Below, piece by piece: positions 7,483 through 20,280 of a stretch of 20,280 nt of DNA (position 1 is the stretch's first letter; the number at the start of each line of letters is the position of its first letter). Under the pieces are notes generated by a model, which was not told the DNA's origin, did no database searches, and saw only the letters and a program-made list of their open reading frames with translations. The translations under genes and the position numbers were made by a program. Origin of the DNA: a virus; the IMG/VR virus record IMGVR_UViG_3300008107_001370, positions 1 through 20,280 of that record, one strand, 5' to 3'.

Positions 7483-7557
7483 AAAAACTACTTTTTGCTT
7501 TTACAAAATGCCGCTTTTTCATTGGTAAATGTCTAGTTTTTTTCGGTTTAGGTATAT

Positions 7558-8157
7558 ATGTGCATGATGAATCCCATTGAACTTTTAGCACAGGTTAAAA
7601 AACTTGTTTTTCAAGAAGAGACAGCAGCCGCTCCAGGTTACACTTTGGCAGACGGAACTAAAATCATGATTTCAGCCTTAGAGGTTGGCGGAATCGTTAC
7701 ACTCGAAGACGGCTCACCCGCACCGGCAGGATCACACACTTTAGCAGACGGTACTGAAATCGTACTTTCCGAAGGTGGTGTAATCGCTGAAATCAAACCA
7801 AAAGAAGTTGAAGCCCCTGAGGTTAGTGTTGAGATTGAAAGCGGAAAGGATATGGAAAAGAAAGACGAAGAAGAGAAAGCAAAAATGGCTGCAAAGTTTG
7901 CGGAGATTGAAAACAGAATTGCAGCAAGTGAGCAAAGTTTTTCTGCTTTACAATCTGATTACGAAGGTTTAAAAGCTGCATTCGGTAAGCAAAGCGAAGC
8001 AATGCAAGGATTGATTCAGCTTGTAGATACTTTGGTTAACGTACCTTCTCAAGCACCGGCTGAAGTTCCCAACAACTTTAAAAAAGTTAGCATTGAAAGC
8101 AAAGCTGACAAAATAAAATCTTATTCACAATTCGTTTCACAATTTAAAAACAAATAA
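7558..8157 (+). CDS. Capsid scaffold-like protein
   Basis: Up to 199 residues; ATG at 7558, 7564 and 7567 are all possible starts, and 7564/7567 give MMNPIELLAQVKKL, which looks most natural. Two copies of a TLADGTxI motif (GYTLADGTKIMI and HTLADGTEIVL) form a small beta-rich N-terminal part; the middle and C-terminal parts are charged and helical (EKKDEEEKAKMAAKFAEIENRIAA), a likely coiled coil. Lying directly upstream of the major capsid gene (2-base gap), having low complexity and being acidic all fit a scaffold or capsid-assembly chaperone, and similar proteins precede capsid genes in Bacteroidota phages as I recall them. It could be cut by the protease at 5179. The scaffold function is inferred from position and composition. 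Confidence 0.72.
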   Translation: MCMMNPIELLAQVKKLVFQEETAAAPGYTLADGTKIMISALEVGGIVTLEDGSPAPAGSHTLADGTEIVLSEGGVIAEIKPKEVEAPEVSVEIESGKDMEKKDEEEKAKMAAKFAEIENRIAASEQSFSALQSDYEGLKAAFGKQSEAMQGLIQLVDTLVNVPSQAPAEVPNNFKKVSIESKADKIKSYSQFVSQFKNK

Positions 8158-18388: not shown

Positions 18389-18639
18389 GTGACGAAATAC
18401 AAATACCTGAATTTCCAGAATATACAGGCTTTGAGTTGCTCGATATTATTAGCAATCAGCTTGAGGTAATTGCTACACTTGCCGAATTATCAGAAGCGCA
18501 ATACCGTACCTATGATGACGAACTGGATGACGTAAACACAGTCAAAAGAAACACATTCAGGATAATATTTGCGGCACAAAGGAAACTACTTAAACACGTT
18601 AAAGAATATGAGCAACGAAATACTGATAAAGAAACTTGA
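18385..18639 (+). CDS. Small acidic phage protein, 84 aa
   Basis: 84 residues, acidic and helical (FELLDIISNQLEVIATLAEL, TVKRNTFRIIFAAQRKLLKHV), starting on the previous stop (ATGA) and overlapping the endolysin start by 32 bases. No family recognised. Tight coupling on both sides suggests it is translated with the phosphoesterase and endolysin. Confidence 0.68.
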   Translation: MSDEIQIPEFPEYTGFELLDIISNQLEVIATLAELSEAQYRTYDDELDDVNTVKRNTFRIIFAAQRKLLKHVKEYEQRNTDKET

Positions 18640-19216
18640 GAATAAAATTCCTGTTTCCGTTTATAATCACTTAGCTAACAGCAAGAACCTTGCAAACATT
18701 ACCAATAAAACAAGGCTTGCTCATTTCCTTGCTCAAGTTGCTCATGAAAGCGGAAATTTTAAATTAGTTTATGAGAATTTAAGATACTCCGCAAATGGCT
18801 TGAGAAAAACATTCCCGAAATATTTTACAACAGATACTATTGCAAATCAATATGCAATGCAGCCTGAGTTAATTGGAAACAGGGTATATGCTAACAGAAT
18901 GGGGAACGGAAACGAAGCAAGCTGTGAAGGTTACTTATTTCGTGGTCGCGGTTATCTGCAATTAACAGGCAAAAGCAATTACCAATTATTTAGTCAATAC
19001 GTAGGAGAAAACTTAGTTGATAGTCCAGATAAAGTTGCTACCAAGTACCCAATGGATTCAGCTCTGTGGTTTTTTGATAGGAATAAACTTTGGGAGCTTT
19101 GCGATTTAAGTACACCAGAATCAGTTGCAGCTGTAACACGAAGAATAAACGGAGGTTTTAACGGCCTTGCAGATAGACAGTCTAAATTCAAAGCCTTTAT
19201 GTCTTTCCTTGCTTAA
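18608..19216 (+). CDS. GH19-family endolysin
   Basis: I take ATG 18608 (MSNEILIKKLENKIP), giving 202 residues; a longer frame from 18569 would lie inside the previous gene. Glycoside hydrolase 19 hallmarks: catalytic Glu47 in FLAQVAHESGNF, the NLRYSANGL segment (58-65), RGRGYLQLTG (112-121) and INGGFNGLADR (180-190). GH19 enzymes include chitinases and phage lysozymes; in a phage operon it would cut the glycan strands of peptidoglycan. There is no signal peptide, so release should depend on a holin, probably the 15632 product. No separate cell-wall-binding domain is seen. It is the last + strand gene of the lysis group. Confidence 0.9.
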   Translation: MSNEILIKKLENKIPVSVYNHLANSKNLANITNKTRLAHFLAQVAHESGNFKLVYENLRYSANGLRKTFPKYFTTDTIANQYAMQPELIGNRVYANRMGNGNEASCEGYLFRGRGYLQLTGKSNYQLFSQYVGENLVDSPDKVATKYPMDSALWFFDRNKLWELCDLSTPESVAAVTRRINGGFNGLADRQSKFKAFMSFLA

Positions 19217-19247
19217 TATTTCAGCTAACTTCATTTTGTAGTCAACT

Positions 19248-19264
19248 GGTTACAATTTGTAACC
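19248..19264. repeat. Perfect inverted repeat after the endolysin
   Basis: GGTTACA-ATT-TGTAACC, 7-bp arms with a 3-base centre, 31 bases after the endolysin stop. GACTAA just behind it (19265-19270) is complementary to TTAGTC at 19303-19308, so alternative pairings with the following element are possible. Confidence 0.85.
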
Positions 19265-19276
19265 GACTAAATTTTA

Positions 19277-19368
19277 AAAGTTTACCGACAATCTTTTTAG
19301 CCTTAGTCATTCAGGTAGTCCGGCTTGAAGCCGTACCGTTGTGTATGCCTGAACCATTGGTAAACTTT
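19277..19368. other. Nested inverted-repeat element, possible structured RNA or recombination site
   Basis: Outer arms AAAGTTTACC (19277-19286) and GGTAAACTTT (19359-19368) are perfectly complementary over 10 bp. Inside, TTCAGGTA (19310-19317) can pair with TGCCTGAA (19346-19353), and CGGCT-TGA-AGCCG (19321-19333) forms a short hairpin; GGTA (19314) with TACC (19334) offers an alternative to the middle stem. It is non-coding on both strands. It does not fit a tRNA: no T-loop GTTCGA-like motif and no acceptor end. Whether it works as RNA, as a protein-binding DNA site or as an attachment site is unknown. Confidence 0.5.
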
Positions 19369-19437
19369 ATTTTAATTCATCGCAAAGTTTCCGAATTTAA
19401 GTGTATTTTTTTGCATAAAGTAACATTTTTTGTCAGT

Positions 19438-19506
19438 TATTTTCCATTATATCCTTTTAAGTATAATACTGAAATTTTATTTTACTTTATATCTTTTTAA
19501 ATATAA
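19438..19506. repeat. Two AT-rich 29-bp direct repeats at 40-bp period
   Basis: 19438-19466 and 19478-19506 match at 25 of 29 positions (shared core TTATATC, TTTTAA, TATAA). They are non-coding and lie in an AT-rich stretch between the nested inverted repeats and the hairpin at 19508. They could be protein-binding sites or a decayed tandem duplication. Confidence 0.75.
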
Positions 19507-19507
19507 C

Positions 19508-19537
19508 CGACTGCTTCTTACGGGAAGCAGCCGGGTT
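19508..19537. terminator. Hairpin in the convergent gap, weak terminator candidate
   Basis: CTGCTTC (19511-19517) pairs with GAAGCAG (19524-19530) across TTACGG; flanking CG/CG adds two pairs around an A-C mismatch. On the + strand it is followed by GGTTTT, a short T-run; on the minus strand no clear U-tract follows. It lies between converging genes, about 290 bases after the endolysin, and may end either transcript or a small RNA from this region. Confidence 0.5.
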
Positions 19538-19598
19538 TTGCCGAGTCTTCATTGATTGAAACTAACTTTTAATTTTAATCTAAACGGCAAAGATTTTA

Positions 19599-20280
19599 TT
19601 AAACTAAATCAAATAATGTAGGAACTGATAATTTGTGCATCATTGCTTTTATGTAATAAATGCCATCGTTGAAATATTCGCTGTTCAATTCAACACTTAC
19701 AGATTTTCTTTGCATTTCAATAGCTTTATAAGCTGTAGAAAATAAACCCCCGAAAGGATCATCTACAATTTCACCTTTCATAGTATATCTATTTATAAGC
19801 CTTTCAATGATATCAAATTGCAAAGGGCAAATGTGTTTTTCTTTTTTAGAGTGAACTTGGTGAGCATTTAAGGTATTCATTCTATTTACATCTGTCCATA
19901 CTAAATCACTATTAGAATGTACTGGCAATGTCATAAATGTAGAGCTTCTTTGGTAAGCATGCGCATCTAATTGCCAAAGTGCTTTTTTATAATCTGATTT
20001 TTCTTTTTGCACAGGCTCATCTCCGTAGGCGTTATTCATTTCGGTAGGCGCTTTCCTAAATAATAAAACATATTCAGGTAAACCTACGCCCATCTTTGTA
20101 GCATCTTTACATTGTTCGCTCCATCCTAATCTATATGTTTGATTATTTTCAGCTACCACATCCGTAGTAACTGTTATTTTACCCATAAGATAAAACCCAT
20201 GCTTCAAAAAATGCTGAACGGTTTGCCCGCTGAAATCTGAAATAGTAGTAAATGATGTGCCGTTTTGATAACTGTAGCGA
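19599..20280 (-). CDS. DNA methyltransferase, C-terminal part (runs off window)
   Basis: The minus-strand frame is open to the window edge, so the start lies beyond 20280; about 226 C-terminal residues are visible. CPLQFDIIERLINRY followed by DDPFGGLFSTAYKAIEM and SVSVELNSEYF is the S-adenosylmethionine-binding motif I region of N4-cytosine/N6-adenine methyltransferases with motif order catalytic motif first (beta/gamma type); the catalytic (D/N)PPY motif must be upstream, outside the window. Segments LPEYVLLFRKAP and WQLDAHAYQRSS match phage methylases I recall, which may be fused to other domains. The third Gly of DPFxGxGST is Phe here. Probable role: protecting phage DNA from restriction. 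It is the only minus-strand gene and faces the lysis operon, so it belongs to a different transcription unit. Confidence 0.85.
   Translation of the reverse strand, partial: RYSYQNGTSFTTISDFSGQTVQHFLKHGFYLMGKITVTTDVVAENNQTYRLGWSEQCKDATKMGVGLPEYVLLFRKAPTEMNNAYGDEPVQKEKSDYKKALWQLDAHAYQRSSTFMTLPVHSNSDLVWTDVNRMNTLNAHQVHSKKEKHICPLQFDIIERLINRYTMKGEIVDDPFGGLFSTAYKAIEMQRKSVSVELNSEYFNDGIYYIKAMMHKLSVPTLFDLV

Follow-up and report, generated by a model that had tools for sequence, protein, structure and literature searches.

Rickettsia palindromic elements are read in frame within coding sequences, and copies are also found outside genes. REP sequences are described as palindromes tagged with GTAG or CGTC (PMC3733652). 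In this study, we analyzed a palindrome-rich gap in IMGVR_UViG_3300008107_001370. The window, that is, the whole stretch of DNA analyzed (20,280 bases), comes from a tailed phage that carries genes for a portal, a head protease and an endolysin. It is most closely related to uncultivated contigs, and Flavobacterium phages show approximately 71% DNA identity to its methyltransferase region. The methyltransferase of the window lacks 51 residues in frame between R87 and S88 that are present in three close relatives. Approximately 380 bases separate the endolysin and methyltransferase genes, and the GC skew turns in this gap. This makes the gap a convergent junction, as the left-hand genes run rightward up to the endolysin and the methyltransferase gene is read leftward to its end at 19599. 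The account that we favor, with somewhat more confidence than doubt, is that the junction is a mosaic, in which a hairpin of the Bro-N palindrome type and a second hairpin would act as stops and a 92-nt hairpin (the 92-mer) would be the cargo of one sub-lineage between them. The features are listed in Table 1.

Table 1. Features in and around the convergent gap of the window.
Feature	Position	Strand	Remarks
GH19-type endolysin gene	18608–19216	+	PF00182, E 4.5e-8; PHROG endolysin, E 7e-62; closes the rightward block
Palindrome b, degenerate Bro-N type	19222–19248	-	CAGTTGACTACAAAATGAAGTTAGCTG; 23/27 against the palindrome carried by a truncated L202 Bro gene
First hairpin, terminator-like	19239–19269	+	12 bp with a 4-nt bulge (TAGTC-AACT-GGTTACA / TGTAACC-GACTA), then AATTTT; rightward block
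Palindrome a, Bro-N type	19243–19269	-	TAGTCGGTTACAAATTGTAACCAGTTG; reads SVTNCNQL; 24/27 to an intact Bro gene
92-nt hairpin (92-mer)	19277–19368		10-bp outer stem; inner stems 19310–19317/19346–19353 and 19321–19325/19329–19333
AT-rich conserved element with a small palindrome	19383–19420	-	CGCAAAGTTTCCG (relatives, CGGAAAGTTTCCG); promoter-like position for leftward transcription
Operator-like inverted repeat 1	19437–19466		direct repeat of 19477–19506, 87%, 40-bp spacing
Operator-like inverted repeat 2	19477–19506		partner of 19437–19466
Second hairpin, terminator-like	19507–19534	-	11 bp; leftward block; loop kept and stem varying in relatives
DNA methyltransferase gene (portion that the window covers)	19599–20207	-	PF01555, E 1.1e-13; end of the leftward block

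An earlier note on this DNA had described at least four complementary pairs in the non-coding gap. All of the named arms were located, and no credible gene covers the hairpin region. GGTTACA (19248–19254) faces TGTAACC (19258–19264), and GACTAA (19265–19270) faces TTAGTC (19303–19308). The 10-bp outer stem of the 92-mer is perfect (AAAGTTTACC, 19277–19286; GGTAAACTTT, 19359–19368) and encloses an inner stem (TTCAGGTA with TGCCTGAA) and an innermost stem (CGGCT with AGCCG). The 151-nt fold reaches −36.9 kcal/mol (z −3.8), with 0 of 200 shuffles as strong. For a 140-nt stretch, a perfect stem of at least 10 bp is present in 2.7% of shuffles, and the count of short stems (at least 6 bp) is ordinary, as 22% of shuffles reach as many. 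GACTA pairs better with TAGTC at 19239–19243 than with the distant TTAGTC, and relatives carry TGAGCC at the position of the latter. The GACTAA/TTAGTC match looks like a chance pair, and its lack of conservation leaves the long-range switch that would depend on it without support. The switch-like alternatives that had been proposed do exist, mainly within 19222–19269, where either AGTCAACTG pairs with CAGCTAACT or TAGTC pairs with GACTA. The repeats comprise two distinct elements and, it appears, one accidental match. The statement that no known RNA family comes to mind held, in that Rfam searches in two modes returned nothing above chance and no family match for the 92-mer. Collectively, the earlier observation is partly confirmed and its interpretation is supported in part, with the covariation and conservation results giving no support to an RNA or a switch.

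The first hairpin lies directly after the endolysin gene (fold z −3.6), and its sequence is related to a palindrome within Bro-N genes. Palindrome b matches a second type of Bro palindrome (CAGTTGACTACAAATTGTAGTCAACTG) at 23 of 27 positions, so the phage holds two palindromes, with CAACTG common to both, and the minus strand from 19269 to 19222 is a tandem of the two. For this second palindrome, the match reaches 24 of 27 positions in two phages, L083 and L079. Twenty-four consecutive bases (19242–19265) are identical in three of 395 Bacteroidia genomes; two of these matches lie in Bro-reading frames (the one tested matches PF02498), and the third lies in a degenerate copy. Weak plasmid matches to the first-hairpin stretch are likewise located within Bro-N genes. 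On its minus strand, the phage reads SVTNCNQL-TTK-stop, comprising SVTNCNQL and QLTTK-stop with the VTNCxQL motif, and the Bro genes read ETVTNCNQLK or QSVTNCNQLK. Based on these similarities, the first hairpins and the palindrome inside Bacteroidota Bro-N genes most likely have a common source, or the former are descended from the latter. Counting against a Bro-N-derived hairpin, 17 related viral records yielded neither an intact Bro-N gene nor a PF02498 match, and the open reading frames of the window around 19222–19269 are not Bro-N. A Bro-N scan of the viral contigs found five loci only. The stretch 19222–19269 is kept at 94–96% beside different cargo in L051 and L083, although both have a weaker stem in the first hairpin, and at 90% in L034–L036, where the adjacent lysozyme differs. 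Moreover, the endolysin stop codon of L034 and L083, as read from the sequence, lies inside the second palindrome.

The covarying palindrome inside the Bro-N genes is the by-product of greatest interest in this analysis. In 15 distinct 27-mers from intact Bro frames, 113 of 135 arm positions are paired, compared with 82.8 for shuffled arms and 63.0 after synonymous recoding. In a further count, 88% of cells are paired, compared with 75% in shuffled and 26–42% in slid controls. Double changes affect 7 of 12 pairs and amount to 26 cells, compared with an expectation of 10.8; the sequences are related and the events are not independent. These co-changes alter the amino acids (QLV..NQL, QLA..SQL, QSV..HRL and ETV..NGL), which goes beyond what synonymous codon choice can account for. 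Additionally, several Bro copies end no more than about ten codons after the palindrome (L250, L241 and L178), and partial matches to Bro proteins are concentrated on residues 1 to 69–76. Bro-N genes with the covarying internal palindrome were observed at L202 750–2166 (L250 is the same locus), L241, L244, L178/L186 and L214. Stand-alone Bro palindromes also occur between genes, and L202 carries an array upstream of its intact Bro gene. We tentatively entertain, as a possibility with the balance against it, that the palindrome is itself a nucleic-acid element, serving for recombination, breakage or binding. On this reading, the arms would covary against the amino-acid constraint, genes would break just after it, free copies would lie outside intact genes, and phages would have reused it as a boundary for module exchange behind endolysins. 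If so, it would offer a testable example of selection acting on DNA or RNA inside a protein gene, and of a shared site for the exchange of phage lysis modules. The literature searched contained no paper on a covarying Bro-N palindrome, an absence that is no proof of novelty.

Comparison with relatives reveals a conserved junction with exchanged neighbors. L034–L036 keep the block 19216–19600 (91% identity over the first 226 bases and 86% over the last 198), and the swap is directly visible, as a GH24 lysozyme precedes the block in place of the GH19 enzyme of the window and a different gene follows it. Because the shared upstream genes are approximately 90% identical, conservation of the block does not exceed that of the genome overall. 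L002 has an endolysin protein with 94% identity, but its homology to the window stops no later than about 19280, where another gene takes over. In L003, L004 and L007, small minus-strand genes lie in the gap, one of which is HTH-like by weak matches. The slot holds tRNA-like genes in L042, L043 and others and 2.4 kb of minus-strand genes in L083, and in L051 the first palindrome is joined directly to the last hairpin. The AT-rich element is common to L034–L036 and L083, and in L083 it lies upstream of a minus-strand tRNA-like gene; a consensus promoter was not found at this element.

Several further observations concern the content of the gap. Minus-strand tRNA-like genes were found in or near it in L042 (3831–3920), L043 (2528–2617), L113, L115, L116 and L120–L122, as well as in L105, L119, L124 and L125. 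Several of them have undetermined or odd anticodons (ARAGORN '???' with a two-base anticodon). L083 has a tRNA-like sequence of the Leu type at about 7507–7620 that ARAGORN did not call. The gaps of L003 and L004 contain similar pairs of operator-like repeats, approximately 40 bp apart and adjoining small HTH-like genes; the window keeps its paired repeats (19437–19506) although its gap lacks the HTH-like gene of these relatives.

A stable stem-loop stands at the end of each transcription unit, and two terminator-like hairpins were observed compared with 0.4 in shuffles. Their T-tails (ACTAAATTTT and TTATATTTAA) are weak and pass a loose scan only. Transcription arriving from each side is most likely halted by these hairpins, the first acting on the rightward block and the second on the leftward block; their position and sequence suggest this terminator action and the boundary function, and the direction of transcription is likewise inferred. 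The loop of the leftward hairpin (CTGATCTTACGG or CTTACGG) is nearly constant while the stem differs among the window, L034, L050, L084, L096 and L134. In relatives, this hairpin often adjoins a tRNA-like gene.

In the favored account of a mosaic convergent junction, a rightward late block would meet a leftward block in a gap assembled from swapped modules, and the end hairpins would stop transcription arriving from either side. The first hairpin, composed of two overlapping Bro-N-type palindromes, would have been retained at the boundary where endolysin genes exchange. The space between the stops would serve as a cargo slot, which relatives would fill with tRNA-like, HTH-like or other minus-strand genes, and the sub-lineage of the window with two operator-like repeats, the AT-rich element and the 92-mer. 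A striking cluster of hairpins can thus combine a palindrome derived from a gene with cargo specific to a lineage, as a patchwork instead of one RNA.

The distribution of the 92-mer is narrow. Its outer arms, used as a search pattern, recovered L034, L035 and L036, three viral contigs that represent a single phage type, and two unrelated loci. In these three contigs, 88 of 92 positions are identical, although both neighboring genes differ. L002 and L051 do not contain the 92-mer, and it was not found in the sampled host genomes or in any other relative searched. A covariance model built from two sequences recovered only the known copies in 89 loci, 12 viral records and approximately 300 Bacteroidia genomes, and blastn of the hairpin block against phage and plasmid records gave chance matches only. 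A loosened core pattern gave ten new loci in the viral contigs, all unrelated, and ARAGORN was negative for a tRNA. The minus-strand frame KVYQWFRHTQRYGFKPDYLND looks protein-like; because it has no convincing relative and is shortened in L036, reading the 92-mer as a gene relic is unsupported. The 92-mer is most likely a lineage-specific insert, the cargo of one sub-lineage, and the identity of 88/92 leaves room for a function that it may have of its own.

Such a function would be provided if the 92-mer were a small non-coding phage RNA, as had been suggested, probably transcribed leftward from the AT-rich element under both operator-like repeats. The 92-mer alone folds at a z of about −3 on either strand (about −2 in L036), it persists despite the swap of both neighbors, it lies between the two terminator-like hairpins, and it shares its slot and orientation with the tRNA-like genes of relatives, L083 having the same upstream element. 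However, none of its four changes is compensatory and one breaks a pair in L036, a weak test given two distinct sequences; the shared upstream coding genes are about equally conserved (89.6%), no further copy was found in the viral contigs, sampled host genomes or Rfam, and the expected place has no consensus promoter. We regard a small RNA as rather unlikely. Less probable still is a miniature inverted-repeat element (MITE) with 10-bp terminal inverted repeats and ATTTTA direct repeat flanks. The terminal repeats are perfect and the 6-bp ATTTTA directly abuts both sides in the window, but the flank is AT-rich, which makes this repeat weak evidence, and in L036 it is not kept (ATCTAT). Furthermore, no second copy came to light elsewhere: beyond the phage type of L034–L036, the pattern scan returned only the two unrelated loci, and the sampled genomes contained none.

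The palindromes, the AT-rich flanks, the imperfect direct repeats TAACCGACT at 19260 and 19504, and the convergent gap with its skew turn would also suit an attachment, packaging or replication site, a reading that we consider very unlikely. Close relatives have no tyrosine recombinase (matches occur only in two distant records), 12 related records have no serine recombinase, and neither type is present in the contigs of the closest relatives, which are incomplete. The 92-mer has no counterpart in the sampled host genomes and is dispensed with in L002 and L051. Comparison with host genomes, which had been proposed for attachment-site identity, left the 92-mer unmatched and yielded the first hairpin as the sole clear match, within Bro-N genes or their relics. 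The attachment-site reading is thereby weakened.

Compared with known systems, the Bro-N palindrome resembles the Rickettsia palindromic elements in being located in frame within coding sequence with copies outside genes. In contrast, it is shorter (27 bp), is confined to one gene family and has a low copy number, and no case of its insertion into unrelated genes was observed. REP sequences are likewise palindromes of 20–40 bp (PMC3733652); unlike them, the Bro palindrome is not high-copy (its core pattern is present in 17 of 247 genomes), is mainly inside or next to Bro genes, and shows no terminal GTAG or CGTC tag. As in Bro-N family proteins (PF02498), the minus-strand readings of the phage palindromes match the VTNCxQL motif, whereas neither the region of the window nor the 17 related records contain a Bro-N gene that is intact. 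Finally, the junction is similar to intrinsic (rho-independent) terminators between convergent operons, with GC-containing hairpins that immediately follow the final gene of either block and have T-rich tails. It differs from them in that the tails are weak and the first hairpin is probably derived from, or related to, a palindrome in a protein gene family.
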